From assembly GCA_033439255.1 (NCBI GenBank), contig CM065892.1, forward strand, positions 434,001 to 498,000: a stretch of 64,000 nt of DNA, given 5' to 3'. A program made the translations under genes and the position numbers. This DNA comes from Hericium rajendrae (lineage: Eukaryota > Basidiomycota > Agaricomycetes > Russulales > Hericiaceae). This document shows, one piece after another, positions 1 to 63,896 of this stretch (positions within the stretch are counted from its first letter, which is position 1; each line of letters begins with the position of its first letter). A model generated the notes under the pieces. The model did not search any database. It had not been told where the DNA came from and saw only the letters and a list, made by a program, of their open reading frames with translations.

Positions 1-1
1 C

Positions 2-118
2 TTCGTGACCGGTGCATGTTGGAAAGACATCTTTGCGGCTTATAAGGAGGAGGAGTACAAACGAGGAAAACAGGATAGCCTCGTGTCAACGTCTGTCAAG
101 TTGGATATGAACGCCTAG
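2..118 (+). CDS. probable 3' end of a gene cut by the left window edge
   Basis: The frame starting at base 2 is open for 38 codons up to TAG at 116-118. It reads as charged, protein-like sequence (for example DIFAAYKEEEYKRGKQ). There is no start codon or upstream exon in the window, so this would be a terminal exon of a plus-strand gene. I do not recognise the family. It could also be a chance open frame. Confidence 0.35.
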   Translation, partial: FVTGACWKDIFAAYKEEEYKRGKQDSLVSTSVKLDMNA

Positions 119-686
119 ACCGTGGCTTGATAGACCGTGGCTTGATGGCTATACACATAGAATGGTTTTCAGCAAGTCTGCACCGTTGCAGTTGTACAAT
201 GAGGTCGCGTATTGGGCAGCATGCGCGTGGAATTGCTACGGAAGCTCGAACCTTATTTGCACGTGACGATCAATTCGGTTCGTCTGTCCAACGCTTTCAT
301 GTCGATTCTTAGGTTTTCTTTCCAAATGTACGTCCATGGCGTCAATCTTTGCCACTCTATCCATCTCTAACATCTCCGCTGATAAGGGGGCACATACATC
401 TAGTCGAGGCGTGACAATAGAAATAAACCTGTCTTGCATATGTCTTCCCCATCTGGCATCAACAGATTCTTTCAAGCTGATAATTCCGAACTTGACTTGG
501 TAGCCACGTGCTCGCAAGTTAGGCATTGATAGTGCCGGGCGCTCGATCAATGAACATTGTGAGTGTGGGGAACTGGGGAACTGGGGGCTCATCACAACCA
601 CTATACGGTTCTTTGCACCTACATCACTGAAAGCCTGTCAGAAGCCTGATGTACAGTCGCCACAGACAGTCAACAAACAGTATTCA
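119..686. other. intergenic region, no supported gene
   Basis: This lies between the presumed 3' end at 118 and the stop of the ketopantoate reductase gene at 687. A minus-strand open frame (236-601, 121 codons) has no motif I recognise and is not called. The region probably holds the 3' UTRs of two convergent genes. Confidence 0.4.
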
Positions 687-4377: not shown

Positions 4378-5881
4378 TCATGCGGCGACGGCCTTGGGCA
4401 CGGGACTGTGCTTGCCGCGCTTGAGCTCGCCCATCGGGACCGTCTGCCAGCCGGTGACCTCGGGCATCTGCCCCGGGAGCGACGCGCGGCGGCCGAAGAA
4501 GTCGCCCTGCATCGCGTCGCCCATGCCGTACTCGGGGGCGGTCGCGGCCTTGCGCGGCGCGAGCGAGGCGATGTCGGACAGCGGCGTGTTCGGCAGGCGG
4601 ATGCCGCCGTCGCGCGGCAGGAGCGGCGGCGAGTGGGAGGAGCGCTGGTCGAGCGGGAGGGAGAAGCTGGTCGCGGCGGGGGAGTTGAACGAGGACGGGG
4701 GCGCGGAGCCGGAGGACGAGTACATGGAGACTGCCAGCACGTCAGCTGGGCGCGTGAGGAGATCATGCGAGATGCTCACGGGAGTCGTCCCAGTCACTGC
4801 TCGACTGCGCAGAGGAAGTCGACGAGACTGACGCGCGGCGCGACATGGTCTCGCTTTCCTCCTTCTTGACGAGCGCCCTCGCTTTTGAGGCGGGTGAGCC
4901 GGCACCAGCCTTGGACTGTTTACGCGACTTGTTACCCGTGCGCAGCTCGTCGAAGCGGAGGGGGCGCGGGCGCAGATGCGTGCGCTCGTAAAGCCCGCAC
5001 TTGTTGCAGACGATCTTGCCCGGGTTGAGTGTCGAGCGGCGCCAGCTGGGCGGCTCGGTCTGCGAGCAGTTGAAACACCGGCGACGGAGGTATTGCGTCT
5101 CCTTGGAGGCGGCGTCGTCGGTGTGCTGCACGGGGAGGCCGGTATGGGGGGAGAGGTAGGACATGGGAGGCACAGCGCCGGAGGAGGAAGGGCGGTAGAG
5201 GCAGGTCTGGGACGGGACGATGACGGGGGCTGACTCTTCTAGTTTTACATTGGGGTCGAGCTTGTCAAATTCGTGGTAAGAAGAGGCGGGAGAAGAAGAC
5301 ATGGAGGAATGCATAGATGGAGCGGGGCCGAGGGAGATATATTGGGGCGAGTTGTCCATCATAGGGAGCGGCTCGCCGTAAAGGGTATCGGTGCGGGAGG
5401 TATACGGACCCATGAGGGGCTCGTCATGCTGGGGAATAAAGACGGGAGCAGGGTATGGGACGTCATCACGGTCCTGACGGACGTAGGGATAGGTGGCCCT
5501 GCGCATCATGGCGATCTCCGGGGCGTGGATAGGCTCTGACCGTTGATGGTAGGCGTCGTGATCGACATAGACGTCCTGGGGAATATGGTGCTCGGGGCCG
5601 ACGTCGTGGTCATAGAGCTCGGACAGCAGAGAGCCGCGCGAGCCGTTGTAGTTGTACTGGGGGCTTTGAAGGCCCTGCCACGGGCGGTGGCCCTCGGGGG
5701 TAACACCGTGCTCGTCATGCATCGGGTCAGAGAAGATGTTGCGGACCGGGGGGTCGAGCTCGGTCTTGTAAGTAGCGGGGGATTGGGAGAGAGGATGGAA
5801 GTCGTCAGAGCGGGGGGAGGGAGTGCGAGGAGTGGACGCGTCGGAGTAGGAGGTATAAGCGTCGTAGTGAAAGGGGTCCAT
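4378..5881 (-). CDS. GATA-type zinc finger transcription factor
   Basis: Two exons on the complement (5881-4780 and 4730-4378) with a 49-nt GT-AG intron between them; 484 residues. The start chosen is the ATG of MDPFHYDAY. An in-frame ATG at 6016 would add a low-complexity hydrophobic leader and is less likely. The GATA finger lies at about residues 275-305: CFNC, then 19 residues with PSWRRS, then CNKCGL, followed by the basic tail YERTHLRPRP. The loop of 19 residues is longer than the 17-18 of the classic AreA and WC-type fingers. The rest is Ser/Pro/Tyr-rich and disordered, as in activation domains. It should bind GATA sites in the nucleus. The regulated pathway cannot be told from sequence alone. 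Confidence 0.9.
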
Positions 5882-6859
5882 GAGCTGTGATGAAGAGGGA
5901 TGAGAGATGAATAAAGGAGAGTGGATGATAAATACCGAAAGGCTCGACGACGGGTGGGGAGGACGGAGGGAGCAACGGGGGAAGAGAAGGGCAGAAGCTT
6001 CTGTGTTTTGAACCATCTCAGGGTCTCATCGCCTAAACCTGTGTCCCCCATCTCCCGTTCCAGCTAGCCTCCAACATGTCACACTAGGTCACTCTCCGCC
6101 TCCAACCCGGGCCCCGGACCCGTGACGCGACGCGACGCGACCGACGTGACCGTGCGTCTCCCCGGACATTTCCTTCCGGTCCATGCTTCCGTCCCCTTTC
6201 TCATGGGAACTTTCGAAGTTCGAGGGACCCATCTCCCTTTTCCACCCTCTCTCCTCCCCTCCCTTGCCGTCATGCGCGCTGCCCCCGCCCGCTGCATTCT
6301 CCCCAGTCCACTTTGTCCGTTGCTCCTGTCAGTCCCACGCCGTCCATATACCACGTGCGTGCCTTCTGCCGCGGCCACCCCAGTCGCCAGACGCCACCCC
6401 CGACCCCGTCGTGCTCCTCCTGATCTTGCCTTCTTTGGCCTTTCTTCCTTTCTCTCCCATGCTCTTTAACTCCTTACGTACCGTCTACTTACCTCCCTCC
6501 GTACGTTGCTACGTGCTCCCGCCCCGTCTTCATATTGCGTTTCCACTCATGTACACGTCTGCCTATTTTGTAATCATGTCCATGTCCGTCAAACAGAGAC
6601 ATGCACGGCCTTACAGGTCTAGCGTCAGAGCTGTCAACCGCCGCCCTTGGATACGGGCGCCTCAAAGTCTATCGCTTGCCGAATTTGCTATCGTGCCGCT
6701 CCTTGCCGATTTATTGTCCTTTCCGTCTCACGCGGTACCCGCAGCGGCCCCACGTTGTCCACCAATAATGTCACAGTCCAAGTACATACAGATCCAGACA
6801 CCGATTCATCCCTCCCGCTGCCCAGCCCGCCGGGCCTCCCAGTCCTTCCATTTCCCGAC
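5882..6859. promoter_or_regulatory. intergenic region: GATA gene promoter and ING gene 3' end
   Basis: 978 bp between the GATA gene start (5881, minus) and the ING gene stop (6860, minus). Long pyrimidine-rich stretches (6170-6470 on the plus strand) and short GACGC repeats around 6122-6142 are visible. I find no convincing coding exon. Confidence 0.45.
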
Positions 6860-23937: not shown

Positions 23938-32532
<8,595 letters not shown>

Positions 32533-40825: not shown

Positions 40826-41556
40826 CTTGTCGAGGGAGTCGAGAAACCAGTCGAGTTCGCCAGGGGGTAGATTCGGTATGCCAGTCCGCTGAGATATATA
40901 CCGAGGGAGGGGTATATACCGAGGGAGGGATATATACCGGGCAGGCCAGGGCTTAGTGATTACACGCGATGGCCATGAGGTGGAAAGCTTCCAAAGGTTC
41001 CGTGCATGTTGCGACAGCTTGAGCCGCCCATATCAATACTTGTCTTTGCGGCTGTACACACATGGTGACTATGATTGGAGGACTCACCATGGTTGTGCAT
41101 GCAAAGGATCTGCCGCCGACCCACTGATTCCGACGGATAACAGCAATGCGCGGCTGTCGAGAAGACTGTCATGTATGTATGAACAAAGAAGCTCGGCAAG
41201 CTCGGTGGATCATGTACGTAGCCCTACGATCGCCCCTTCCGCTTACATTGCGCTCAATCCAACGCACTGCTTCGAGATCTTCCAGCTTCTGCCGCCCAAT
41301 TAAAACTCATCATGGAGGGCGATCAGAATCACGAGAGAACGACATTGTGCAAATAATTCTATCTCTAGTACAGAAGATAAACGACGAAGATCCGGTCATG
41401 GAACGCACACAAACGTGGCCGTGCTTCCAATACAATAACAATGGCATGGACAGACTGAGACTACGCAGCGTTCATAAAGGCACGGCCTGAGCGTCTGCCG
41501 CGGCTTCCTGCAGACGCCATCAGTTTCATTTCCTAAAGGGCACCAAGAACAGGAGA
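40826..41556. promoter_or_regulatory. intergenic upstream of RNase III gene
   Basis: 731 bp between two minus-strand genes. It contains the TATATACC tandem repeat (40894-40940). No further gene is supported. Confidence 0.45.
40894..40940. repeat. 18-bp tandem repeat with TATATACC core
   Basis: Two full and one partial copy of TATATACCGAGGGAGG spaced exactly 18 bp apart (starting 40895, 40913 and 40931). It lies 70-115 bp upstream of the proposed RNase III start, so it could be promoter or 5' intron sequence. Confidence 0.8.
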
Positions 41557-42406
41557 TTAACCCCCCACCTGCGTTCCCAGCGGTGCCTTCCCCACAAAGT
41601 GATCCACATGCAGCCCGCACTCCGTCTTCTCCTCGCGCCCCGCCCACCGCCCTGCGCGCTCGCCCGCGTCGCCCTCTCCGCTCTTCGCCGTGCTGTGCCA
41701 GTCGCCGACGCTCTTGTACCCCTGGTCGAGCAGCGCGTTGCGCGGCACGCCGTGCTCCTTGATGTACCATTCCACGAGGTGGAAGTTCCACGCAAAGAGC
41801 GGGTTCAGCTTGAGCAGCCCTGCCGCGTCGACCTCGAGCGGCTGCAGCGACGCGCGCGCGCCGCCCTGCGAGGCGCGGCGGCCCGTGATCACGGACTGCA
41901 CGCCCAGCTCCGCGTACGCGCGGCGCGCGGGCTCGACCTGCCGGCACACAGGGCGTGAGCACCCCGCACGGCGCGAGCAGTCGCAGGCGTACCTTCACGG
42001 CAAAGTCGTACCCCGCCTCGTCCGTCTCCCAAAGCCGCGCGCCGTGCTTCTGCTCAAAGTCCGCGACCGTCGCGCAGCCCGCGGGCATGTACACGCGCAC
42101 CGGCACGCCGTACCGCGCCTTGACCGCCTCCACGAGCGCGTACGTCTCCGGGAAGTGGTACAGCGTGTCGAGAAAGATGAGCGGCGGCGGCGAGGTCGTG
42201 AGCTTCGAGAGCATGTCGATCGCGACGAGGCCGGTGAGGCCGAAGGCGGTCGTTTGGTAGAGGTTTGGGAGGTAGTCGATTGCCCAGCGCAGGATCTCTT
42301 CGGGGGTGAGCGGCCGCAGGTAGGCGTTGATCTTGTCGAGATCGGCTTGCGTGAGGGGGAGCGTGAGCGGCTTTGGCAGCGCTGGGGGTGCGGAGGCATC
42401 AGACAT
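41557..42406 (-). CDS. phosphoadenosine phosphosulfate (PAPS) reductase
   Basis: Reduces PAPS to sulfite and PAP with thioredoxin in sulfate assimilation (yeast Met16). Two exons on the complement (42406-41993, 41937-41557) give 264 residues. The N terminus reads TPEEILRWAIDYLPNLYQTT, followed by the phosphate-binding region and LIFLDTLYHFPETYAL. Exon 2 has ITGRRASQGGARASL and LFAWNFHLVEWYI, and near the C terminus the catalytic ECGLH motif (KTECGLHVDHF). Length and motif order match the family. A 55-nt intron separates FAVK from VEPARRAY. Confidence 0.93.
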
Positions 42407-44395: not shown

Positions 44396-44691
44396 GGGAC
44401 GTACCGGGATTCAGAAAAGTAATGCGCTGGCGGGGAAGTCGAGGCGGTGAGATGGACGGGAGCGCGCAGACTCGAGAGCATGGCACCGTGAGAATTACAT
44501 CCTTATTGGATGGTTGCGATCATTATGCAGCAAGTACAGTACATCAGGCTCGCGCCCCTTCGGACTGGATGAACAGACAAGCTCTAGAACTTCTTCGTAC
44601 GGCGATACATCAAGCCATGTGGCCTGCGTAAAAAAACGCATGAGAGGAGAGGGAGCAATGGTTGGGAGCTGGAGTTTTGAACAAGCTGGCT
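44396..44691. promoter_or_regulatory. left remnant of the ArfGAP/velB divergent intergenic region
   Basis: 296 bp between the ArfGAP start codon and the left target-site duplication of the transposon nest. Before insertion it joined the sequence at 57618. Confidence 0.5.
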
Positions 44692-44699
44692 GGCCAGGG
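44692..44699. repeat. target-site duplication 1, left copy (GGCCAGGG)
   Basis: Eight bases directly before the terminal repeat at 44700. They are identical to 57610-57617 after the other end of the nest. Confidence 0.9.
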
Positions 44700-44733
44700 A
44701 GGCCCCCTGAAGCTCTTATGTATGGTTCCCGGC
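44700..44733 (+). repeat. 5' terminal repeat tip of element 1 with first copy of target duplication 2
   Basis: 34 bp: the T-variant of the terminal repeat (AGGCCCCCTGAAGCTCTT...) ending in TTCCCGGC at 44726-44733. The same 34 bp recur at 51159-51192 in the centre of the palindrome. Confidence 0.9.
44726..44733. repeat. target-site duplication 2, left copy (TTCCCGGC)
   Basis: The last eight bases of the separated 5' tip. The second copy is 51185-51192, on the other side of the inserted inverted element. Confidence 0.85.
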
Positions 44734-44968
44734 AGGCCCCCTGAAGCTCCTATGTATGGTTCCCGGTCGGAGGGGCCCGAATCTCCCCTAAAATCCCCAA
44801 CGTTTCGGGGTGAAATCCCCTAGTTTCGGGAAGGAATATATTTTTTTCTCATTTTTTCCGTGCTCCGTCGCAGCTGTTCCCGCCCACTGCCAAATACTAA
44901 GTAACTCAATACATACAGACTAAACCGATACATGAATGGATTCATCACGTCTCTGTATAAAATTTCGT

Positions 44969-47900
44969 TTACTCTTCCAAGATTGCATGAACACTCGATT
45001 GAGCAAGAAGTCCCCATCTCGATGCCGCAGTCTCTGTCAGTTGCACGAAGTTGCGTTGTATGCTGCTTTGGAACACCTTTGCTCCTAAGTTGTAAAGAAG
45101 GTCTGATGCCCTCGCATGCGTGAAGAGGACATATTGGTCATCCATACAAGAAAACGCGGGTGTCGGTGATGGCTTGGAGTTGTTCTTGGGGCGCAAATCA
45201 CTGCTTCGAATCTCTCCGCGACTCTGCGCTCACTGTGAGCATGCCAGTTGACAATAACGAAGTGGCATAAGACTTACATGAGTCAAAGGAAGGTACACAC
45301 GGAGCGCTAAGTAGGATAGACCAGCTGATGTGTTGACGGTATCAACTGACCCGTGTCGATGACACGCACCCTGCTTGTACAAGTCGAGTACTTCACCGAT
45401 ATAGAAGCGACAGCCTTCTGCTGTCTTGCTGCGCATGATGACGAAGTTATCACGGCAGAGAATGTTGATGGCATTGATGTTCTTCTCAAGTAGATTTGGA
45501 ACGAAGTCTACAATCGTAAGAAGCCAAGTATCAGCCTGCTTATTGTCGATGCAGAACCAGGCCGACACGCACCTTTCAAGTACAGTGATACCCGCTTCAA
45601 TGTCTGCGCCCCTTGCCAATGGAGTTCACGATCTGTCTTCGGCTTCCGCATCTCGGGATCAAGATCCTGAGCGAGACGGACTAGATGAGAACCCTCGCGG
45701 GCAGATAGCTTTGCTCCGGTACCAGCGGCCTTGATTTCGTTCTCTGTAGCGGTGATGGCTGCCTCAAACTTTGGATCGAGCATGATTGTCCGTTGTGACT
45801 TCACGCTCGTCCGTGACTGATGGCTTTGACGAGCATCCAAAACATTTTGAAGAATGAGCTGCCCACCAGTAACAAAAGTGCTTGACGACGAGGGCAACGA
45901 GATGCTTGAAATCATCTGTGGAGTGGGTAGCTCCACCTTTGAAAGCGCGCTGTCAGGAATGCCATCTCCGACTGCAGCATCATCAGCATCGCGAGCATCA
46001 AGAAGTGCCGAGTCTCTGGCCGCGTCTGCTGCAACTATAGCGACTGTCTCAGCGAGATCCCAAGATGCCGATGAGGGCTCAGAGCCGATAGCGCTTTCGT
46101 CGATCTCGTCCTCTGTTCCTTCCCCGAGTGCATTATCAGGCTCCAGATTAACTGACACTGCCAACTTGCCTGGCTTAGGAGGACCACTGAGTGGAATAAG
46201 CTGAAAGGGAAGAGGAGGGATGGCCATCGATAAGAAATCTTCAGAGAGCGACGAAGCCTCCAGATATCCTGTCTCTACCAATGCATCGAGCTCAGCTATG
46301 GTTAGGCGCACACAGGCACCAGCCAGTTCCTCATGAGTAAGCGGGGAATTGTCGAAGTCGAAGACATAGCCAGCGCGTGAAGTTCTTTCCTTCTTCTCGT
46401 CAAATTTCCCAGACAGGAGAATCCGTTGTCTGATCATGACATGCTTGACGAGAGCTAAGAACTGGGAATAGGTGAAGTTCGGGAGCATAGTTCTTGCAAG
46501 CCCGAAGAAATGCTCGACGTACTCGGTCCCAAGAAGCCACGGGCAGAACGGAATGTTGGGATAATATTTGGTATATATGAGGGCCAGCGCAATTAGAGTA
46601 TCGCATAGCCGGTTGAATATGTTGAAGCTTGGAGCAGAAATAAAAGAGCGCGCAGTCGAGTAAAGGTCTGGATATCGTGCAGCGAGTGTCGTGATGTGAG
46701 ATCGCCAGATGTGAAGGAAGAAGCGGGCACGTAGCGCCGCAATAAGTCGAGCGCGTATGTCAAGTCTGCGATTCAACCATGCATCATATAGTTCACCTAA
46801 TGATCCTGTTAATATGGAGAGATTCTTTCATGTCCCAGCCATGAAGAACTCACCAAAAATGAAAAGATAGGCAAATAAACCTCGGAATTTCTCGTGAACG
46901 TGTACCTCCCCATCCTCCTCGTACGTAGTAGCGAGGAGTGTCTGATAATGAAATATTCTCCGCGCTGCGCCATCGTCTTGTTTATCGACATTCTGAACAT
47001 CAGCAAGTTGAAGTCCGGCACGACCTGTCTTGTACACTTCAACAAGCGTGTTGTTGACGACAAAAGAGTTGCCGAAACTGGCATTATGCGTGCCATGTTG
47101 AGGCTGATTTCGTCCTGTTTTCATGGCGTGTGAAGGGTCTGTAATGGATACAAGTGGGCCAGTCTTTGAGAACACGACAGCCTTAATAAAGATACCATAT
47201 GCCGCATTTTCGTAGACCATAGGCGGGCGATCTGACTTCTCAGAGTCCATCAAGACTTGGGCTGCAAGTTCTGATGCTGCTCCATCGGCAGCAAATGAGA
47301 CAATTGGCAACCCCAGCTGAGCAGCCATGCGTAAAATCTGCATGTGCAGGTCATGAATACCAGAGGCGGTGTCAGACCCCGTAGTGGGAAGGAGGGCGAT
47401 GACAGTAGGCGGGACTTCAGGAAGAGGAATCTATCATTACATTAAATTCAGTACTGATATGAACACTTTGAATAGGTTTTACCTTAGCTAGGATCGCACG
47501 AACTTGAGAAGCGACAGATTTCGACGACTTGATCTTGTCTACAATTTTGTTGACATCTTTCGAGTTCTGGACCGCACATTCTTCGAGTGGAAGAGTTGAC
47601 CCAAGAACATGCCCGGCACCAAAGCTAGTTGAGTACGCTAGCCGTAGACGGACTTTTGTACAGTCGCCTGCAACAGCGATCGGACCGGAAAATGCGACAG
47701 CATCAACAAAGCGCTTGACACGGGCCATGTTTTCGAAGACAAGAGCGGGGTTTTGCAAAGCATCGCTTGACTTCGCCACTAGTGTTCTAAAGACAGCGCG
47801 GCATCAGAAAACCATATAGAGATTTTAACGAACACGTACTGTAAGTGGCGAGAAGATGGGCCACAAATCTGCGCGGTCACGATGGCATACTGGCGGGAGG

Positions 47901-48526
47901 AGTTTTGGCCATAAGATCGAAGAAGGGTCATGAAATTCAGGTAGTTCTCAGGGTAGCGCTGGCCATACTTCAGGTTTGTGTTGGAGCTACTGAGTCGTCG
48001 AACGCGGTCTGCAAGGACATCACAGATTTCGACAAAGGTCTTATGGCCCTGTAGCTTTCCGTCGATGGCGTACTTGTAGAGCGTTAAGAAGCAGTCTGTA
48101 TTTCGATCCCGCTCCAGATGATTCAGTATATCTTGGACTAGAGGGTCTTTGAGTTGTGTCTTGAGACTGCGGCCCTCGTGATCGCGAAATGTGTATGAAG
48201 CGTACTTGACCCGGTTAGCATGAATCTTTCTCTGCTCTTCAGGCGGGAGTGTGGACTCGAGAATTTTCTTGACGGAATGATTTGGGCTGTCAGAAGCTGG
48301 GTGTAATGTAACAAAAACGACTCACTCTGTGCACGGCGTCTTTGAAAGAAGGGTCCCGAGCCACTTTGCCACAGGCATCGCAAACTTGCGAGCGATTGAT
48401 GGTCAAACGCTGACAAACTGTCGATCTCGCTGTTCTGTTCTCGTAGTCCACCTCCCAGCGTGCAAAGGCCTTCAAGTTCCCATCCATTTTCTTGTGCTCC
48501 GTAGCCGTCCAGTATCTATGAGGCAC
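44969..48526 (-). CDS. transposase part, inner copy (RNase-H-like, P/hAT-like motifs)
   Basis: Mirror image of 53817-57374, where the domains and exons are described. It is identical in translation over the exons compared. The single base difference to the other copy (44984) is silent in this frame (Ala codon GCA against GCG near the C terminus). It carries the same frame break near 48325. It reads towards the ArfGAP gene, its stop being about 575 bp from that gene's start. Confidence 0.75.
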
Positions 48527-50901
48527 TCAAGAATTGCCATCATTAGGAATCTTTGGCCCCACGTCTGCTAGTGCACCCTCGTCAGCGCTACCAGCATCCG
48601 AATCGCTATCACCCTCCGACTCCGAGTCAGCATCGGCAGAATGAGACGCTTTCAGCTCGCCACGCTGAAGAGGGAAAGGCTTGTAAGGAAATAGCTGGCG
48701 TGCAACCTGCGCCCTTAACTTGGGCGCAACACCGCCTAAGCTCCGAGTTTGTGTTCTCAGCACATACTCTTCATACTTGCTTCCCGTCAGACCTTGGCAA
48801 GGTGTCTGTGGTGCTGTCTCGACAGATGCAGGTATGGGTTTGCCTTCACGTTCTCGTCCGTTGGTTCTGGATGATGATGATTTTGCGTTCAGATGCAGAA
48901 GTATGGAAGATTCCTAGGTACGTTGATCGTCAGCGAGTATTCAAATTTCCTGGTAGTGATTCTGCTAACTTACCGTCTTGACCGCCCTTACCACATATTT
49001 ATTCCTGATGCTTGGATCCTCAACCACGGGCAGATGAGTCGGCTCGCTCGTATCAGCGTCACCAGTCGTGGTCTTCGGCTTGAAGAATGACATGATCGAG
49101 CGATCCGATGCCGACTGTTAATTGTCCAGTGTAAGCAAGGATTCTCACTGGGTGATATCATGTACTCACACCCAGCAATCTAGGCCGCTTCTCCATAACA
49201 CGTTTATTGATTACGCCGGTAATTCCTTTGCACCTTTGCTTATGAACCTCCCAGTTTTTCTGATCGTATTTGCGCTTGGACTCCAGTTTGATCCATTTAT
49301 GACAGGCATTGCAGAGGACACGATCAGGCTCCACTTTCTCCGTCCAGGTATCTTGTTCCAGCTTTTCTTGTCGCTCGCCATCGCTAAGCCTTTTGGCTCT
49401 TGTTCCACGCGCCGCTTTGGATCTCACGGCAGTGACTTTCTCATCGTCCGTATTACAATCTTCCTCTGCATCTACCTGTACGTCCTTCTCAATCTCCTTC
49501 AAGCTCGTCTTGACCCTCTTTAACCTAAACAATACATAAGCACACAGACTAGGACATGAATGCAAAGCCTGACATACAGGCGCTTTCCCGTGGTGAGCAC
49601 CGATCGCCCGCTGATAGAAGATGAGTCAGAATTGTGGTCGCTGCTGTGCGTCTGCAATGCTGCAGCTGACGATGATATCGCTGATTCTGTGGGCTCATCG
49701 GATACCTTGTCGCACCTAGGACATAATGTTATCGTCAACTACTGTGCAGCGGATTGTAGAAAGCATCTCACATTTCGGTGTTCAAGTCGGGATTGGGTGT
49801 TGGCAGCCATTCTGAGTCGCCGGTGTAGTCTTCATCCTCGTCTCCAGCTGCAGCTTCAAGTGATGGTGACCGCGCCCGCTTCGATAGGTTCCCATCCTTG
49901 GGATAGTATCGCGTAACTCTGGTCAGTAGCATATTGTATTAGCGCGGCCCTTTGCTGATGAAAGATGACTTACTGTACTTGTACCATCGCTCGCATCGCT
50001 TCTTCACGAATGTCCTCTTTGCGACTGTTCGTGCAGCTCTCAAAATTGAACCCGGCGCGGGCAAATGCCTGCATGGCCATCATGACGAAAAGGCCACACG
50101 ACCATGAATCGCACTGGCGCTCTGACGGCGGCGGGCTATACAATCTGCTGCTCCATTTGTCGCCTTCCCAGTCGACACCTGGGAGACTGAGAGCGCAACG
50201 TATGGCGCCCACAACACGTTTAGACAGCTGCATAGGTAATTAATCATCAATCTGGCTGTACTTTCGTCTGCGCACTTACCGGCGCTGCCCATCTAGCCGA
50301 TTTGAACGCGGGCCCAAGACTATCGAAAATACCAATACTCTTTGCTTCGAAGTCGATAATGCTGAACACCCAGTGCAGCGGCTGTCCTCCGCAAAGCGGG
50401 AAACACCAGTATCGATGATTTGGTATTGCTGTTATGCCTTGTGGGCACTTCAATGTACGTGAGTTCACTTGTCGGCGATGTATAAACTGTACTCACTGCG
50501 GCATTAACGTGTACCTCAATCGTGCCTACAGCCCGAACGTTCTTCACCTTGCCCGCGGCAAGGGGTCCTAACCAGGAGGAGAAATACAAGAAATCTGTTT
50601 GGCCTCGGCACTTTTCTTGAACAAGTGCAGCAAATACATTCATACAAGTGCTCGCGATCTTAAGTTGATTTTTCGCATGGGTTGCAAGAGGGTATAGGTC
50701 AGTGTAATCAAATTCTATGTTACGAATCTGGCGGATGTGTGAATCTTGTATCAAGGCCGATAGTCCCGCAGGATCTAAAGGCATAGCTGATAAGTTTAGG
50801 TCTGCGCGTGTCGCTGAGGGGAGGTGGGAAGCAGGCGAGAAGTGGGCGGGGACGATTCGAAATCTGTCTCTCATTTCTCTATCATTACTGAGCCTTGGCA
50901 T
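48527..50901 (-). CDS. Ulp1-like protease and zinc-finger part, inner copy
   Basis: Mirror image of 51442-53816, with the same exons and the same TGA (complement of 48527-48529). All domain statements for that copy apply. Its start (50901) lies 541 bp from the start of the other copy, so the two genes are divergent around the palindrome centre and share mirrored 5' regions. Confidence 0.75.
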
Positions 50902-51158
50902 CTCTGAGGGATTCGCATACGGGGCTCCTGCAGTGACAGCGTGCTGAGCAGCGCCGCATCGAGCAGCACATCGAGCAACACTCGGGCTGTCTGATGAAGA
51001 TTGGTTCTGCCTGCACCGAAGTAGCTAAAGTCTTGCCTTAAGCGGCCTGAAATCCGCTACATGACCGGGAAAGTAGACCGTTATCTGGGCCCTAAATCCC
51101 CTACTTTCGGGAGGAAAAATCCAAAATTTCGCCCCCAATTCCCCTACTGAGCCGGGAA

Positions 51159-51184
51159 AGGCCCCCTGAAGCTCTTATGTATGG
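51159..51184 (+). repeat. 26-bp spacer at the palindrome centre (inverted terminal tip)
   Basis: Identical to the outer 26 bases of the 5' terminal repeat (44700-44725). A simple nested insertion predicts the reverse complement at this place. Being flanked by perfect inverted repeats, it can flip without any other change. Confidence 0.85.
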
Positions 51185-51192
51185 TTCCCGGC
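51185..51192. repeat. target-site duplication 2, right copy (TTCCCGGC)
   Basis: Continues directly into the body of element 1 at 51193 (TCAGTAGGGG). It matches 44726-44733. Confidence 0.85.
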
Positions 51193-51441
51193 TCAGTAGG
51201 GGAATTGGGGGCGAAATTTTGGATTTTTCCTCCCGAAAGTAGGGGATTTAGGGCCCAGATAACGGTCTACTTTCCCGGTCATGTAGCGGATTTCAGGCCG
51301 CTTAAGGCAAGACTTTAGCTACTTCGGTGCAGGCAGAACCAATCTTCATCAGACAGCCCGAGTGTTGCTCGATGTGCTGCTCGATGCGGCGCTGCTCAGC
51401 ACGCTGTCACTGCAGGAGCCCCGTATGCGAATCCCTCAGAG

Positions 51442-53816
51442 ATGCCAAGGCTCAGTAATGATAGAGAAATGAGAGACAGATTTCGAATCGTCCCCGCCCA
51501 CTTCTCGCCTGCTTCCCACCTCCCCTCAGCGACACGCGCAGACCTAAACTTATCAGCTATGCCTTTAGATCCTGCGGGACTATCGGCCTTGATACAAGAT
51601 TCACACATCCGCCAGATTCGTAACATAGAATTTGATTACACTGACCTATACCCTCTTGCAACCCATGCGAAAAATCAACTTAAGATCGCGAGCACTTGTA
51701 TGAATGTATTTGCTGCACTTGTTCAAGAAAAGTGCCGAGGCCAAACAGATTTCTTGTATTTCTCCTCCTGGTTAGGACCCCTTGCCGCGGGCAAGGTGAA
51801 GAACGTTCGGGCTGTAGGCACGATTGAGGTACACGTTAATGCCGCAGTGAGTACAGTTTATACATCGCCGACAAGTGAACTCACGTACATTGAAGTGCCC
51901 ACAAGGCATAACAGCAATACCAAATCATCGATACTGGTGTTTCCCGCTTTGCGGAGGACAGCCGCTGCACTGGGTGTTCAGCATTATCGACTTCGAAGCA
52001 AAGAGTATTGGTATTTTCGATAGTCTTGGGCCCGCGTTCAAATCGGCTAGATGGGCAGCGCCGGTAAGTGCGCAGACGAAAGTACAGCCAGATTGATGAT
52101 TAATTACCTATGCAGCTGTCTAAACGTGTTGTGGGCGCCATACGTTGCGCTCTCAGTCTCCCAGGTGTCGACTGGGAAGGCGACAAATGGAGCAGCAGAT
52201 TGTATAGCCCGCCGCCGTCAGAGCGCCAGTGCGATTCATGGTCGTGTGGCCTTTTCGTCATGATGGCCATGCAGGCATTTGCCCGCGCCGGGTTCAATTT
52301 TGAGAGCTGCACGAACAGTCGCAAAGAGGACATTCGTGAAGAAGCGATGCGAGCGATGGTACAAGTACAGTAAGTCATCTTTCATCAGCAAAGGGCCGCG
52401 CTAATACAATATGCTACTGACCAGAGTTACGCGATACTATCCCAAGGATGGGAACCTATCGAAGCGGGCGCGGTCACCATCACTTGAAGCTGCAGCTGGA
52501 GACGAGGATGAAGACTACACCGGCGACTCAGAATGGCTGCCAACACCCAATCCCGACTTGAACACCGAAATGTGAGATGCTTTCTACAATCCGCTGCACA
52601 GTAGTTGACGATAACATTATGTCCTAGGTGCGACAAGGTATCCGATGAGCCCACAGAATCAGCGATATCATCGTCAGCTGCAGCATTGCAGACGCACAGC
52701 AGCGACCACAATTCTGACTCATCTTCTATCAGCGGGCGATCGGTGCTCACCACGGGAAAGCGCCTGTATGTCAGGCTTTGCATTCATGTCCTAGTCTGTG
52801 TGCTTATGTATTGTTTAGGTTAAAGAGGGTCAAGACGAGCTTGAAGGAGATTGAGAAGGACGTACAGGTAGATGCAGAGGAAGATTGTAATACGGACGAT
52901 GAGAAAGTCACTGCCGTGAGATCCAAAGCGGCGCGTGGAACAAGAGCCAAAAGGCTTAGCGATGGCGAGCGACAAGAAAAGCTGGAACAAGATACCTGGA
53001 CGGAGAAAGTGGAGCCTGATCGTGTCCTCTGCAATGCCTGTCATAAATGGATCAAACTGGAGTCCAAGCGCAAATACGATCAGAAAAACTGGGAGGTTCA
53101 TAAGCAAAGGTGCAAAGGAATTACCGGCGTAATCAATAAACGTGTTATGGAGAAGCGGCCTAGATTGCTGGGTGTGAGTACATGATATCACCCAGTGAGA
53201 ATCCTTGCTTACACTGGACAATTAACAGTCGGCATCGGATCGCTCGATCATGTCATTCTTCAAGCCGAAGACCACGACTGGTGACGCTGATACGAGCGAG
53301 CCGACTCATCTGCCCGTGGTTGAGGATCCAAGCATCAGGAATAAATATGTGGTAAGGGCGGTCAAGACGGTAAGTTAGCAGAATCACTACCAGGAAATTT
53401 GAATACTCGCTGACGATCAACGTACCTAGGAATCTTCCATACTTCTGCATCTGAACGCAAAATCATCATCATCCAGAACCAACGGACGAGAACGTGAAGG
53501 CAAACCCATACCTGCATCTGTCGAGACAGCACCACAGACACCTTGCCAAGGTCTGACGGGAAGCAAGTATGAAGAGTATGTGCTGAGAACACAAACTCGG
53601 AGCTTAGGCGGTGTTGCGCCCAAGTTAAGGGCGCAGGTTGCACGCCAGCTATTTCCTTACAAGCCTTTCCCTCTTCAGCGTGGCGAGCTGAAAGCGTCTC
53701 ATTCTGCCGATGCTGACTCGGAGTCGGAGGGTGATAGCGATTCGGATGCTGGTAGCGCTGACGAGGGTGCACTAGCAGACGTGGGGCCAAAGATTCCTAA
53801 TGATGGCAATTCTTGA
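51442..53816 (+). CDS. Ulp1-like cysteine protease with C2HC zinc finger, outer copy
   Basis: Eight exons joined in phase: 51442-51846, 51896-52063, 52116-52369, 52425-52571, 52628-52765, 52819-53173, 53229-53369, 53430-53816; 664 residues to TGA. The N-terminal part ends in the Ulp1/C48 peptidase core. The triad is spread over two exons: His in PLHWVFSIIDF (51968), Asp in GIFDSLG (52019), Gln and Cys in QCDSWSCGLFVM (52227 and 52245). Such enzymes cut SUMO or related modifiers. Downstream, a C2HC zinc finger (LCNACHKWI ... WEVHKQRC) and an acidic region follow. The frame continues directly past the TGA into the transposase part, so this is probably the N-terminal half of one fusion protein rather than a separate gene. 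The ATG at 51442 is the first in this frame; a stop lies at 51316. Confidence 0.8.
53814..53816 (+). other. in-frame TGA between protease and transposase parts
   Basis: The codon separates DGNS from VPHRYW in one otherwise open frame. The same stop is in the other copy (complement of 48527-48529). A CGA to TGA change at a CpG would produce it. Confidence 0.7.
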
Positions 53817-56800
53817 GTGCCTCATAGATACTGGACGGCTACGGAGCACAAGAAAATGGATGGGAACTTGAAGGCCTTTGCACGCTGGGAGGTGGACTAC
53901 GAGAACAGAACAGCGAGATCGACAGTTTGTCAGCGTTTGACCATCAATCGCTCGCAAGTTTGCGATGCCTGTGGCAAAGTGGCTCGGGACCCTTCTTTCA
54001 AAGACGCCGTGCACAGAGTGAGTCGTTTTTGTTACATTACACCCAGCTTCTGACAGCCCAAATCATTCCGTCAAGAAAATTCTCGAGTCCACACTCCCGC
54101 CTGAAGAGCAGAGAAAGATTCATGCTAACCGGGTCAAGTACGCTTCATACACATTTCGCGATCACGAGGGCCGCAGTCTCAAGACACAACTCAAAGACCC
54201 TCTAGTCCAAGATATACTGAATCATCTGGAGCGGGATCGAAATACAGACTGCTTCTTAACGCTCTACAAGTACGCCATCGACGGAAAGCTACAGGGCCAT
54301 AAGACCTTTGTCGAAATCTGTGATGTCCTTGCAGACCGCGTTCGACGACTCAGTAGCTCCAACACAAACCTGAAGTATGGCCAGCGCTACCCTGAGAACT
54401 ACCTGAATTTCATGACCCTTCTTCGATCTTATGGCCAAAACTCCTCCCGCCAGTATGCCATCGTGACCGCGCAGATTTGTGGCCCATCTTCTCGCCACTT
54501 ACAGTACGTGTTCGTTAAAATCTCTATATGGTTTTCTGATGCCGCGCTGTCTTTAGAACACTAGTGGCGAAGTCAAGCGATGCTTTGCAAAACCCCGCTC
54601 TTGTCTTCGAAAACATGGCCCGTGTCAAGCGCTTTGTTGATGCTGTCGCATTTTCCGGTCCGATCGCTGTTGCAGGCGACTGTACAAAAGTCCGTCTACG
54701 GCTAGCGTACTCAACTAGCTTTGGTGCCGGGCATGTTCTTGGGTCAACTCTTCCACTCGAAGAATGTGCGGTCCAGAACTCGAAAGATGTCAACAAAATT
54801 GTAGACAAGATCAAGTCGTCGAAATCTGTCGCTTCTCAAGTTCGTGCGATCCTAGCTAAGGTAAAACCTATTCAAAGTGTTCATATCAGTACTGAATTTA
54901 ATGTAATGATAGATTCCTCTTCCTGAAGTCCCGCCTACTGTCATCGCCCTCCTTCCCACTACGGGGTCTGACACCGCCTCTGGTATTCATGACCTGCACA
55001 TGCAGATTTTACGCATGGCTGCTCAGCTGGGGTTGCCAATTGTCTCATTTGCTGCCGATGGAGCAGCATCAGAACTTGCAGCCCAAGTCTTGATGGACTC
55101 TGAGAAGTCAGATCGCCCGCCTATGGTCTACGAAAATGCGGCATATGGTATCTTTATTAAGGCTGTCGTGTTCTCAAAGACTGGCCCACTTGTATCCATT
55201 ACAGACCCTTCACACGCCATGAAAACAGGACGAAATCAGCCTCAACATGGCACGCATAATGCCAGTTTCGGCAACTCTTTTGTCGTCAACAACACGCTTG
55301 TTGAAGTGTACAAGACAGGTCGTGCCGGACTTCAACTTGCTGATGTTCAGAATGTCGATAAACAAGACGATGGCGCAGCGCGGAGAATATTTCATTATCA
55401 GACACTCCTCGCTACTACGTACGAGGAGGATGGGGAGGTACACGTTCACGAGAAATTCCGAGGTTTATTTGCCTATCTTTTCATTTTTGGTGAGTTCTTC
55501 ATGGCTGGGACATGAAAGAATCTCTCCATATTAACAGGATCATTAGGTGAACTATATGATGCATGGTTGAATCGCAGACTTGACATACGCGCTCGACTTA
55601 TTGCGGCGCTACGTGCCCGCTTCTTCCTTCACATCTGGCGATCTCACATCACGACACTCGCTGCACGATATCCAGACCTTTACTCGACTGCGCGCTCTTT
55701 TATTTCTGCTCCAAGCTTCAACATATTCAACCGGCTATGCGATACTCTAATTGCGCTGGCCCTCATATATACCAAATATTATCCCAACATTCCGTTCTGC
55801 CCGTGGCTTCTTGGGACCGAGTACGTCGAGCATTTCTTCGGGCTTGCAAGAACTATGCTCCCGAACTTCACCTATTCCCAGTTCTTAGCTCTCGTCAAGC
55901 ATGTCATGATCAGACAACGGATTCTCCTGTCTGGGAAATTTGACGAGAAGAAGGAAAGAACTTCACGCGCTGGCTATGTCTTCGACTTCGACAATTCCCC
56001 GCTTACTCATGAGGAACTGGCTGGTGCCTGTGTGCGCCTAACCATAGCTGAGCTCGATGCATTGGTAGAGACAGGATATCTGGAGGCTTCGTCGCTCTCT
56101 GAAGATTTCTTATCGATGGCCATCCCTCCTCTTCCCTTTCAGCTTATTCCACTCAGTGGTCCTCCTAAGCCAGGCAAGTTGGCAGTGTCAGTTAATCTGG
56201 AGCCTGATAATGCACTCGGGGAAGGAACAGAGGACGAGATCGACGAAAGCGCTATCGGCTCTGAGCCCTCATCGGCATCTTGGGATCTCGCTGAGACAGT
56301 CGCTATAGTTGCAGCAGACGCGGCCAGAGACTCGGCACTTCTTGATGCTCGCGATGCTGATGATGCTGCAGTCGGAGATGGCATTCCTGACAGCGCGCTT
56401 TCAAAGGTGGAGCTACCCACTCCACAGATGATTTCAAGCATCTCGTTGCCCTCGTCGTCAAGCACTTTTGTTACTGGTGGGCAGCTCATTCTTCAAAATG
56501 TTTTGGATGCTCGTCAAAGCCATCAGTCACGGACGAGCGTGAAGTCACAACGGACAATCATGCTCGATCCAAAGTTTGAGGCAGCCATCACCGCTACAGA
56601 GAACGAAATCAAGGCCGCTGGTACCGGAGCAAAGCTATCTGCCCGCGAGGGTTCTCATCTAGTCCGTCTCGCTCAGGATCTTGATCCCGAGATGCGGAAG
56701 CCGAAGACAGATCGTGAACTCCATTGGCAAGGGGCGCAGACATTGAAGCGGGTATCACTGTACTTGAAAGGTGCGTGTCGGCCTGGTTCTGCATCGACAA

Positions 56801-57374
56801 TAAGCAGGCTGATACTTGGCTTCTTACGATTGTAGACTTCGTTCCAAATCTACTTGAGAAGAACATCAATGCCATCAACATTCTCTGCCGTGATAACTTC
56901 GTCATCATGCGCAGCAAGACAGCAGAAGGCTGTCGCTTCTATATCGGTGAAGTACTCGACTTGTACAAGCAGGGTGCGTGTCATCGACACGGGTCAGTTG
57001 ATACCGTCAACACATCAGCTGGTCTATCCTACTTAGCGCTCCGTGTGTACCTTCCTTTGACTCATGTAAGTCTTATGCCACTTCGTTATTGTCAACTGGC
57101 ATGCTCACAGTGAGCGCAGAGTCGCGGAGAGATTCGAAGCAGTGATTTGCGCCCCAAGAACAACTCCAAGCCATCACCGACACCCGCGTTTTCTTGTATG
57201 GATGACCAATATGTCCTCTTCACGCATGCGAGGGCATCAGACCTTCTTTACAACTTAGGAGCAAAGGTGTTCCAAAGCAGCATACAACGCAACTTCGTGC
57301 AACTGACAGAGACTGCGGCATCGAGATGGGGACTTCTTGCTCAATCGAGTGTTCATGCGATCTTGGAAGAGTAA
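53817..57374 (+). CDS. transposase part, outer copy (RNase-H-like, P/hAT-like motifs)
   Basis: Follows the TGA at 53814-53816 in the same frame. It begins with a second cysteine motif (VCDACGKVARDP) and continues in spliced exons: 54047-54503, 54557-54860, 54913-55489, 55547 to about 56771, then three more to TAA at 57372-57374. Candidate catalytic residues: Asp in AVAGDCTKVR (54678), Asp in FAADGAASELAA (55057), DPSHAMKTGRN (55203), and Glu in GTEYVEHFFGLAR (55819). A DxxHxxxKxxRN block followed by an ExFFG block recalls P-element/THAP9 and hAT enzymes. Between 54018 and 54047 no GT-AG pair restores the frame. One extra G at the donor would do so. If the part is separate, the first ATG is 53856. 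Confidence 0.72.
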
Positions 57375-57576
57375 ACGAAATTTTATACAGAGACGTGATG
57401 AATCCATTCATGTATCGGTTTAGTCTGTATGTATTGAGTTACTTAGTATTTGGCAGTGGGCGGGAACAGCTGCGACGGAGCACGGAAAAAATGAGAAAAA
57501 AATATATTCCTTCCCGAAACTAGGGGATTTCACCCCGAAACGTTGGGGATTTTAGGGGAGATTCGGGCCCCTCCGA

Positions 57577-57609
57577 CCGGGAACCATACATAGGAGCTTC
57601 AGGGGGCCT
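57577..57609 (-). repeat. 3' terminal inverted repeat of element 1
   Basis: 33 bp, reverse complement of the C-variant AGGCCCCCTGAAGCTCCT... It matches 44734-44766 perfectly and the 5' repeat with one mismatch. Confidence 0.9.
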
Positions 57610-57617
57610 GGCCAGGG
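57610..57617. repeat. target-site duplication 1, right copy (GGCCAGGG)
   Basis: Directly follows the terminal repeat ending ...GGGGGCCT at 57609. It is identical to 44692-44699. Confidence 0.9.
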
Positions 57618-58297
57618 CACGGTTCCGAAAGAGTGGGCATGCATACCATTGAGCTGGGCCCGCATTCTCAAGCTGATGGGTATCCGATTGTTGCCCAGGG
57701 AAAGTCCTATCAGATAAAACCCTGTTTTGCAAGCATCGTTTCCGAGTTGTGTACATAACTCGAACGGCGGTGTACACGGGTCGGGGGGAATAAAGCAGCT
57801 ATCTAGATAAGATTAGGGAGCAGCCGAAGCGCTTAGATGCGTAAGTAATCCAGCCAGGCGCAAGGGGTCTCTGAGTCGCCGTACCTCCCACCGACAACGG
57901 TCTGTCACCTTCTGCGACTCGTCCAGCAAGAGGAGCATCACTGACAAACAACCTCGGAGTGTAGTCGCTGGGCCACGCGAGTCGCTGCGAACAACGGAGT
58001 GCTAGCAACCACGAGTGCATTGGCATAGTTGAATCGCGAGCTGTTCCACTGCACTGGGTCGACCCGTGTCATTGACCGGCTACCGCTCTCTATCACGCCT
58101 CTACTCCTCTGCGACTTTTCTGCAGCCAGGCCCTCGCGACGTGGGAAGTCAAGTAAGTCCCACCTGCCTCTCTTCCCCGCGTCCAGCACATATAACACTC
58201 ACGTCTTTCTCTTGGCCCCCTCCTTCGTCTCTGCTCCGTCAGCAGACAACATCAACGGCCCATATCGCGCACTGTAAAGCCTGCACGACGGACCGCC
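57618..58297. promoter_or_regulatory. velB upstream region, right remnant of the divergent intergenic region
   Basis: 680 bp between the transposon nest and the velB start. It should contain the velB promoter and 5' UTR. No separate gene is supported. Confidence 0.5.
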
Positions 58298-60439: not shown

Positions 60440-63400
60440 CTATCCCAACCCCTCGCCGCTCGCGAGCGCGCTCTGCATCCTCGATCGCTCCCCACGCGAC
60501 ATCTCTATGCGCCGGAACTCCTCGATCGCTTCGACCGCCTGCGGACACTCCTCGCAGATGCGCACGAACAGCGCCTCCGCGCGCTCCCACTCGTCGTCGT
60601 CCGCGTCGTCCGGCAGCGGCGGGTCGTCCTCGCGCAGCACGGGCCGCACGAGCCGCCCCGAGCGCAGGTGCACGAGTACGGCGGACAGCACGCGCAGCGT
60701 CGACCCGAACGGGCGCCACGCCATCCAGCGCGGCGCGATCTGGCCCAGGATGTGCAGCGGGCGCGCGCGGTCGTCCGGCCGGCTCGCGTCCGCGTCAAAG
60801 TCGAGCCACGCGTCGTCGGTGTCCGGTTCTGGGGGATCGTGCACAGCCGGCGTGCGGCGCTTCCCGCGGTAGACGGGGTAGATGAGCATGTCGGGCTCCG
60901 CGTCCTCCGCGGGCACGTCGAAGACGAGCGGCGACGGCGCGTGCGCAGGGCGCTCGGTCTCGAGCTCCTGCTCGAGCACCTGCGACGGGATGATGACCTT
61001 CTCGACGACCTCGAACGCGCGCACGGGCTCGCCCGCGCGCACGAGCGCGACGACGAGCTGGTTCCAGTTGTAGATGTCGAACGCGAAGCCCTGCGCGCGC
61101 AGCGCGCCCCACAGCCGCGCGACGTCGCCGTGGCACCCGCCCACGGAGAGCGCGTCCATGTACATCGAGAGCGGGTGCCACAGCATCTGGTCGCGCTGCC
61201 GCATGTGCTCCGGCGAGAGGCCGCCGCCGGGCCCGAGGAAGAGCTCGACGTCCGGCGCGCGGAACACGAGCTCGACGATGCGCGCCCACACCTCGCGCGC
61301 GGGCTCGAGCTCGCCCAAGTGGCAGTACATCTCGAGCAGCGCCGACCACGCGCGCAGCGTCATCTCGCCACCGTTCTCTTGCATCTCCTCCACGAGCCGC
61401 TCGACGGCCTCCGGCGGCTGCGTGCCCACGAATCTCGCGAGCAGCGGTCCGTAGAGGTGGTCCAGCCCGTGGATCGCGATGCGCTTCCGCGCGAGCCACT
61501 TGCGCCGCGTGGGCTCCGTCTCCATGAGCGACTTGATGAAGTCTTGCGCAGCGAGCACGCTTTGCTCGTCCCGCTCGCAGCAGTACGAGCGGATGATGGC
61601 GCCGAAGGTGACGGATGTCGGCTGGATGCCGCGCGCGATCATCTCATCGTACACTTGCTTCGCGTTCGTGCGCAGGCCGGCGCGCAGATAGCCGGTCATG
61701 ATGAGCGTCAGCGCGTGGACGGTGACGAAGAGGTTGCATTCGAGGGCGCGCTCGGCGCTCTGCATGCGCATGAGGATCCGGTTTGCGATGTCCATCGCGC
61801 CCGCCTCGCAGGCGGACTGGATAAGCAGGCAGTACGTGCGCGGCGATGGCGTGACGCCCTCGCGCTCGACCCGGCTGAAGAGCTCGTTGACCACGGGGAA
61901 TGGCGCGCCGAGGCGCACGTAGGCTTTGAGCAGGATGTTATACACGTCGATGTGAGGCCGTAATTGCCGCTCGTTCGAGGTCTCCATGTAGTCATATATG
62001 CGGACGACGCCCCGCCAGGAGCCTGCACGCGCATGTGCATGCATTAATGCAGACATCATCCACCGATTGGGTTTGACGCCTTCTTCGATGGCGCGCTTGT
62101 ACACCGCTTCTGCAGACACCGCGTCCTTGCGGTCGCCGAAGTACGAGATCAGAGACGTATACACCACGATACCTGGCTCAAAACCTGCGGCGCGCATCGC
62201 CTCGAGCACTAATAATGCTTGATCGAAGTGCCCATGGTCCGCGTAGCCCTGGAAAATGATGTGGTATGCGTACTCGTCGGGCTCGAAGGAGGCCTCCTTC
62301 ATTTTTGTGAACCATTCGTATACGCCGTCCCAGTCGCCCGCTCGAGCATGGGCCAGGATGACCTCGGAATAGTGGTATATGCTGACTTTGTAACCGGACA
62401 GCGAGGGTCCGTCCTCTGGGAAGTACTTGTCGAAGATGCCGATAACGCTGGCGACGTCAGCGTGCACGGCATAAGCGTGCATGAGCGTGGCAACCTGATC
62501 TCGCCCTGACAGCCCCCGAGCCTCCGCGTCGTCGAACACTGCCTGGCTACGCGCGACGTCAGACTGCTGGGCGAGCAGCTGCAGACGGGTCGAGATGACG
62601 GCGCGTTGTATATTGTGATCAGGTGTGGTATTCCATTCGGCATGCTGAAGACCAGCGGTGGCAAGGACGTCTGCGCGCCACCGCGTGAGGGCGCGCATGA
62701 TCGCGACCCTGACGATCTTGTTGACCCCGAGATTTTGCGCGTCCATGTTCTCCATGACGGTATAGGCGTCTTCCGGGGCCTCTCTTGCTAAAAGCCACGT
62801 CATGAAGATATGTCCCACCCGGGTCCGATACTCAGATGATCTGTTCTTGTACGCATCCAGTAGCCGCGCGGCGGGTGCGGTGTTGCTGTCCAGAATCGCG
62901 AAGACCGTATCGACGACCACCTGCAAGCTGGGCCCCGATTCGACAGTCCGCACGATCTCCTTCCCCACGCCCAACCACTCCTCGACTAGCCAATCCAGCA
63001 CTGCGTCCCTGCCATGCGTGCGGTTTACCGCAAGAACGACCCCGCGCACCGCCCGCGCCATGACCGCCGGCATATTCTTCCACGGATACCGCTCCCTTTT
63101 CAGCCGCCGCATCCCCGCCGTCGCCTCCTTCAGATCGCCCGCAATCGCCGCCGCGCGCACCCGCAGACACCCCCGCTGAAACCCGCAGTTGTCCGCGCGG
63201 TCCAGCAGCGTGCGCAGCCGCCGCGCCCACGCACGCAGCGCGTCCGCGTCGTCGAGCGTGTCCTCCACCGCCGTCTCGATGCGGTCGATGAAGTCGAGGT
63301 ACCAGAGGGCCCTAAAGAAGCCCCGATCGGGCAGCGCGTTCGCGTCCTGCAGTACGCGGAAGGCGCTCCACGCGTCCTCCGCGCAGATCTGTTGCTCGTC

Positions 63401-63896
63401 TGGATACTCTGCGTCGCGATCGCGCATGAATGACGCGATCACCGCCTGGGGATCCGCTGGCGGCGCCTGGGGCACGACAGCGTGCGAACTGGCTGTGCTG
63501 AAAGTACGTGGGTTTCCTGGAGCTGTCCTAGGGACTGCGAGCGTTGGGCGCGTGGGCGCGTGCAGCGTGTGGAGCGCCTTGTGGTGCGGCACAGGATAGG
63601 AGACGAAGAGTCGACTCCGACCTGGATTCATAGTACACGATGAGAATGCAGTCACGGATAACGGCACGGGACGTACAGTTGCTGCTGAGGAGCCATTCCG
63701 CACACTCGAGCCAATCGCTATCAGGGAGCGCCTTTTCTTTTCCTTTGCACCGGCGGGCGCGCGACGCAGCATCATGATAATGCATTAGGTGGTATGCTGA
63801 GGCGAGGACTGCGTGAGAAGAAACCGAGCGGGCTGCAAGGGCGGGGTTTGCGATGATTGCGTTGAGTGAGGTCAGGAAGGGTTTGACCATCACCAT
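60440..63896 (-). CDS. mitochondrial pentatricopeptide repeat (PPR) protein
   Basis: Two exons on the complement: 63896-63677 and 63621-60440; 3,402 nt, 1,133 residues. Exon 1 supplies a basic, Ala/Ser-rich N terminus with the look of a mitochondrial presequence (MVMVKPFLTSLNAIIANPAL, then AARSVSSHAVLASAYH). The second exon carries helical repeats of about 35 residues. The clearest are at about residues 480-680: EPDEYAYHIIFQGYADHGHF, EPGIVVYTSLISYFGDRKDA, KPNRWMMSALMHAHARAGSW, RPHIDVYNILLKAYVRLGAP and TPSPRTYCLLIQSACEAGAM. PPR proteins bind organellar RNA and act in its processing or translation. The specific target is unknown. The C-terminal quarter is less repetitive and Arg/Asp-rich. It converges on velB with 120 bp between stops. 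Confidence 0.88.

Follow-up and report, generated by a model that had tools for sequence, protein, structure and literature searches.

The window analysed here, a 64,000-nt stretch of contig CM065892.1 of Hericium rajendrae, contains a near-perfect palindrome of 12.9 kb that is built from two oppositely oriented copies of a 6,451-bp DNA transposon. A transposon of a family unrecognised by the libraries searched may have moved into its own terminus by hybrid-end transposition, with the two ends taken from different sister chromatids, and may thereby have left a built-in chromosome-breaking palindrome with divergent transposase genes and surplus transposon ends; taken as a whole, this is a reading that we put forward tentatively, as one that could well be wrong in one or another of its parts. 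The structure itself is much firmer: a near-perfect inverted pair of 6.4 kb is far beyond chance, and the palindrome is real in the sequence as assembled.

Structure of the palindrome

An inverted-repeat search of the window placed the arms at 44733–51158 and 51185–57610, each 6,426 nt long, with a spacer of 26 nt between them. Elsewhere in the window no inverted repeats of at least 40 nt were found, except for one short pair derived from the terminal repeats of the element. Read from left to right, the locus consists of GGCCAGGG, element bases 1–34, the element inverted from base 6451 to base 27, a complete element (bases 1–6451) and GGCCAGGG once more, with a composite length of 12,910 bp between the two outer copies of GGCCAGGG. 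Its parts are the following:

44692–44699, no strand: left copy of the outer 8-bp target duplication GGCCAGGG (direct sequence match)
44700–44733, plus strand: 34-bp 5′ tip (element bases 1–34) joined to the left flank, identical to the first 34 bases of 51159–57609
44726–44733, no strand: left copy of the inner 8-bp duplication TTCCCGGC, element bases 27–34 (direct sequence match)
44734–51158, minus strand: inverted element body, bases 6451 to 27, without the 5′ bases 1–26 (6,425-base comparison with the right copy, one mismatch)
51159–51184, plus strand: unpaired 26-bp asymmetric centre, element bases 1–26 in direct orientation, the reverse of the product of simple insertion (arm comparison and product simulation)
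51159–57609, plus strand: complete 6,451-bp element with both terminal inverted repeats (arm comparison and terminal sequences)
51185–51192, no strand: right copy of the inner 8-bp duplication TTCCCGGC, bases 27–34 of the complete copy (direct sequence match)
57610–57617, no strand: right copy of the outer 8-bp target duplication GGCCAGGG (direct sequence match)

The two outer copies of GGCCAGGG are the mark of an ordinary insertion; a third copy of GGCCAGGG is present in the window at 40944. Four transposon ends lie between the outer copies: two 5′ ends, of which the one at 44700 is the 34-bp tip and the one at 51159 is complete, and two 3′ ends, at 44734 and 57609. The gene copies of the two arms diverge from the centre. 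The only complete element is the one at 51159–57609. The segment 44734–51184 also measures 6,451 bp, and its final 26 bases are element bases 1–26 in direct, not inverted, orientation. An earlier, sequence-only reading of this DNA had regarded that segment as an intact inner element equal in length to the outer one; the arithmetic (34 + 6,417 = 6,451) is right, but the wrong orientation of the last 26 bases refutes the claim that the inner element is intact.

Base-by-base alignment bore out the two 6,426-bp arms with a single base difference that had been described in that reading, and the nested 8-bp duplications lie where they had been placed (GGCCAGGG at 44692 and 57610, TTCCCGGC at 44726 and 51185). 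Its assertion that paired positions give a constant sum throughout holds for the arms, apart from the one mismatch, and fails for the central 26 bases (51159–51184), which form an unpaired spacer. The arms are 99.98% identical, and the sole mismatch among the 6,425 element bases compared is at element position 6201 (44984 versus 57359). On the element strand the right copy has CpG and the left copy CpA at this site, which falls at a third codon position of the gene model and is silent there. The difference fits either a single later CpG transition, through deamination of a methylated cytosine, or a consensus error. The near-identity of the arms is compatible both with a recent event and with ongoing gene conversion.

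At the first joint, element base 34 is connected to a 3′ terminus and at the second, base 27 is connected to a 5′ terminus, with element bases 27–34 (TTCCCGGC) present twice across the joints as an 8-bp overlap. Each joint coincides exactly with the terminal AGGCCCC of the element, and no homology reaches past the joint. Because the joints lie precisely at element termini and show this 8-bp overlap, we consider it very probable that they were made by transposase. As found, the centre reads ...GCCGGGAA-AGGCCCCCTGAAGCTCTTATGTATGG-TTCCCGGC..., where a complete inverted copy would give ...GCCGGGAA-CCATACATAAGAGCTTCAGGGGGCCT-TTCCCGGC....

Origin of the palindrome

Each of several routes predicts a product, and these predictions were set against the window sequence 44600–57717 (13,118 nt). 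Hybrid-end transposition predicts this sequence with one mismatch, the known difference at 44984, and the identical prediction comes from simple inverted insertion with a subsequent crossover of the two arms. Simple inverted insertion alone leaves 21 mismatches, comprising 20 of the 26 central bases and the arm difference; with the centre as assembled, plain inverted insertion of a complete copy was rejected, the 26-bp centre being opposite to the one that it produces. Direct insertion was likewise rejected (4,741 mismatches). The sequence-only reading had proposed a second, inverted insertion into bases 27–34 of an identical copy, within its 5′ terminal repeat. Transposase-type joining at that place stands, given the exact termini and an overlap of the length typical of the family, whereas plain insertion of a whole copy does not, with 20 of the 26 central bases mispredicted. 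Since the observed isomer differs from the product of plain insertion, a swap of the body is needed, which could come from hybrid-end transposition, from a later crossover between the arms or from a misoriented spacer in the assembly.

The route that we favour, with a likelihood that we would place somewhat short of an even chance, is a one-step hybrid-end (sister-chromatid) transposition into the element's own end. After replication, transposase would bring together the 3′ end of the element on one chromatid and its 5′ end on the sister, and this hybrid pair of ends would integrate into bases 27–34 of the element on the first sister. The 3′ end would join base 34, the released body (bases 27–6451) would flip, and base 27 would join the 5′ end of the complete element of the sister. 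The outcome would be the left flank, tip 1–34, the inverted body 6451–27, the complete element 1–6451 and the right flank. What this route supposes is the participation of sister chromatids, the timing and the activity of the transposase. In the genome assembly (46.77 Mb in 19 contigs, in which repeat counts are lower bounds), three DNA queries that jointly cover the element found only the two copies in the window and no others. The sister chromatid would therefore be the obvious supplier of an identical partner, which was probably the copy present at that site once replication had taken place.

Several points weigh against hybrid-end transposition. Plain insertion with a later crossover of the two arms yields the same sequence, and the assembly may show the 26-bp spacer in the wrong orientation unless it was anchored to a unique flank by reads of more than about 6.6 kb. 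Such a transposition should also leave a reciprocal product, namely a repaired empty site, which would have been lost by segregation. The genome search gives lower-bound copy numbers, and the activity of the transposase is a prediction. In addition, among the 11 other two-ended members of the family described below there is no self-insertion and no nested or inverted-duplicated copy, that is, no second case. Neither a second haplotype nor an empty site was found in the assembly, where each flank was matched once. The 12,910-bp composite, with its 5′ tip and 3′ end at GGCCAGGG, might also have arisen at another site and been transposed as a whole; the assembly yielded no further copy of the composite.

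The closest competitor of hybrid-end transposition, to which we give a real but distinctly smaller likelihood, is a simple inverted insertion with a subsequent flip of the arms, in which a whole copy, excised from the sister or from a locus that has since disappeared, enters bases 27–34 and a crossover then inverts the 26-bp centre. Its single mismatch in 13,118 nt equals that of the favoured route, the nested inverted Ds of maize is a precedent for its first step, and recombination is to be expected between long inverted repeats that are separated by a short spacer. However, it takes two events instead of one, and frequent flipping predicts that both orientations occur together, a mixture that the assembly cannot show. 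If instead the assembler had misoriented the spacer, the inner element would be intact on the molecule and simple inverted insertion would account for everything else, and reads shorter than about 6.6 kb are indeed unable to orient a 26-bp spacer between identical arms; yet an assembly of 46.77 Mb in 19 contigs suggests long reads, which can usually do so, and we regard this explanation as unlikely.

An artefact of the assembly or library, in which a fold-back read or a collapse turned one ordinary insertion into a palindrome, would agree with the absence of any other genomic copy from our searches and with arms that are 99.98% identical. Fold-back, however, gives the wrong length and a centre without an asymmetric spacer, and an artefact could neither set the joints on exact termini with an 8-bp overlap of family length nor create a base difference, so that we consider an origin of this kind very improbable. 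The model of fold-back without a spacer was rejected (predicted length 13,092 nt, no asymmetric centre), in agreement with the sequence-only reading, which had argued against a fold-back chimera. The least probable origin, which we think hardly credible, is a homology- or replication-based inverted duplication, for example template switching between the inverted terminal repeats. These repeats are 33-bp inverted repeats with a single mismatch and could in principle serve for it, but the switches would have to run from base 34 to base 1 of the other repeat and from base 27 to base 1, which are non-matching positions, and there is no homology beyond either joint; template switching at the terminal repeats was rejected on these grounds.

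The element and its gene

The element carries terminal inverted repeats of 33 bp at both ends, which are 97% complementary (one mismatch). Judged by its termini, its 8-bp target duplications and a long open transposase model, it is a cut-and-paste DNA transposon. Two features of the complete copy describe its predicted gene:

51177–57555, plus strand: spliced gene model of 1,818 amino acids with 16 putative introns, encoding a Ulp1-like C48 protease domain followed by a transposase-like core (mechanical splice model)
54556–56125, plus strand: exons of the transposase-like core, approximate extent (aligned with two close relatives and several more distant ones)

The gene model was spliced mechanically from the sequence, and its first exon and start codon are doubtful. 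It is open and intron-rich, and scores 1,418 against 112 for the next-best model on the same strand; the coding-strand models of two close relatives score 1,416 and 1,495, against 283 and 599 on the non-coding strand. A Pfam scan of the model identified only the Ulp1-like protease domain (E = 0.00018; 21.9 bits, cut-off 20.7), and the transposase core had no match in Pfam or in the PDB at E values up to 10.

Relatives and target duplications

A search of the genome for the terminal motif, with at most one mismatch allowed, returned 33 places (four of them the ends in the window), as opposed to five with a reversed control pattern. Among the 18 loci examined there were 11 two-ended elements, the other seven being one-ended or chance matches. 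Of these 11 relatives, two have the size of autonomous elements (6,431 and 7,177 bp), and the other nine are short. The target duplication is 8 bp long in ten and 7 bp in one. There are seven distinct 8-bp target sequences; four short copies share GCTGAGGG, where the copy with the 7-bp duplication is also located. The closest relatives share 67–74% of amino acids in the two stretches compared.

Short non-autonomous relatives of 1.47–1.49 kb share the target GCTGAGGG and lie within about 120 kb of contig ends; given this shared target near contig ends, they probably spread with a duplicated subtelomeric segment. Five of the GCTGAGGG-site loci are two-ended (L025, L026, L028, L031 and L032) and two have one end (L027 and L029). 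The last bases of contig C15 and the first bases of contig C7 are the same sequence in opposite orientation. Contig C8 contains three further short elements of 421, 421 and 856 bp (L043, L044 and L045), with related ends and their own 8-bp duplications, which apparently are miniature members of the same family.

Eleven more distant relatives of the transposase core were identified in the genome (L062–L072; 29–38% identity), ten of which have open frames of 439–515 amino acids; the six that were scanned gave no Pfam match above the cut-off. A wider alignment has eight rows, made up of six of the 11 distant relatives, the element itself and its relative on contig C14, and in it a DG pair, DxxHxxKTxxN and EHxFGxxR are invariant.

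The order of the core, Asp ... DxxHxxKTxxN ... EHxFGxxR, presumably resembles that of P-like transposases. One distant relative, out of the eight members of the alignment, touches PF21787 (TNP-like) at E = 0.026, below the cut-off. A PDB search with the wider alignment retrieved only three chance-level chains (E of 0.84 or worse), and the element itself was unmatched at E values up to 10 by the TNP-like RNase H and THAP models and by the Pfam models of the KDZ (Kyakuja-Dileera-Zisupton) and hAT transposases. The family is left unclassified by the libraries searched and, from its motif order, may be near the P-like transposases. It shares with P-element/THAP9-like transposons the 8-bp duplication and what we take to be the order of core motifs, but differs from them in having no significant Pfam or PDB match for the core, no reported THAP domain and a Ulp1-like protease domain. 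For P elements, 8-bp duplications are given in the part of PMC1562414 cited here. The cited part of PMC12730594 attributes 8-bp duplications to Zisupton and, to two Kyakuja families, 7-bp duplications and a lack of terminal inverted repeats. Among the KDZ transposons of fungi, the element has its 8-bp duplication in common with Zisupton, but it has no KDZ match in Pfam at E values up to 10.

Comparison with known transposition systems

The double Ds of maize, a hAT transposon, consists of two identical copies, one inverted inside the other, with 8-bp duplications and extra ends, and the chromosome breakers classically known from maize are transposons that have ends in excess or nested. The palindrome resembles double Ds in having an inverted identical copy joined inside the first, an 8-bp duplication and extra transposon ends. 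In contrast to double Ds, it has full-length copies with a gene in each arm, a fungal host and a family without a hAT match, and its inverted copy is incomplete at the centre, where the 26-bp spacer is swapped. Nested Ds and double Ds are mentioned in the cited passages of PMC3260210, which attribute multiple transposon ends to chromosome-breaking Ds, expect selection to act against nested Ds and report that B73 yielded no double Ds.

Sister chromatid transposition of Ac/Ds can yield flanking inverted duplications, as stated in the cited portion of PMC3744419, and hybrid element insertion of P elements uses copies on sister chromatids or homologues, according to that of PMC2775673. Both processes predict the observed product exactly if the target is the element's own end. 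As far as these portions go, the rearranged segment in the Ac/Ds and P cases is the flanking chromosome, whereas at this locus the element would itself have served as target, nothing but the element is duplicated and the event is reconstructed from its product. A literature search, unevenly targeted, gave no fungal case, by which absence from print is not established.

A near-identical, full-length case in the assembly of a fungus suggests that such structures can persist, at least temporarily, as very long palindromes. The right element keeps both ends and could remain mobile if its predicted transposase works. If hybrid-end transposition is the true origin, the palindrome would be a built-in chromosome-breaking locus and the 26-bp centre a signature that separates end-swapping from simple self-insertion. 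More generally, the orientation of a short unpaired centre between identical arms is diagnostic of the use of ends from two copies (or of recombination between arms), and other assemblies can be screened for it.

Genomic surroundings

Neighbouring open frames encode eukaryotic domains, including a segment of an ATR-like kinase, an oxysterol-binding protein and a pentatricopeptide repeat (PPR) protein; two of the eight frames scanned had no match. From these domains, the intron-bearing gene models and the genome of 46.77 Mb in 19 contigs, the host is evidently a fungus. The frame at 26972–28453 contains UME and ATR M-HEAT domains and is part of a gene for an ATR-like checkpoint kinase. The insertion is flanked on one side by a frame with a PAPS reductase domain (41396–42406) and on the other by a frame for a PPR protein of 1,111 amino acids (60440–63775).

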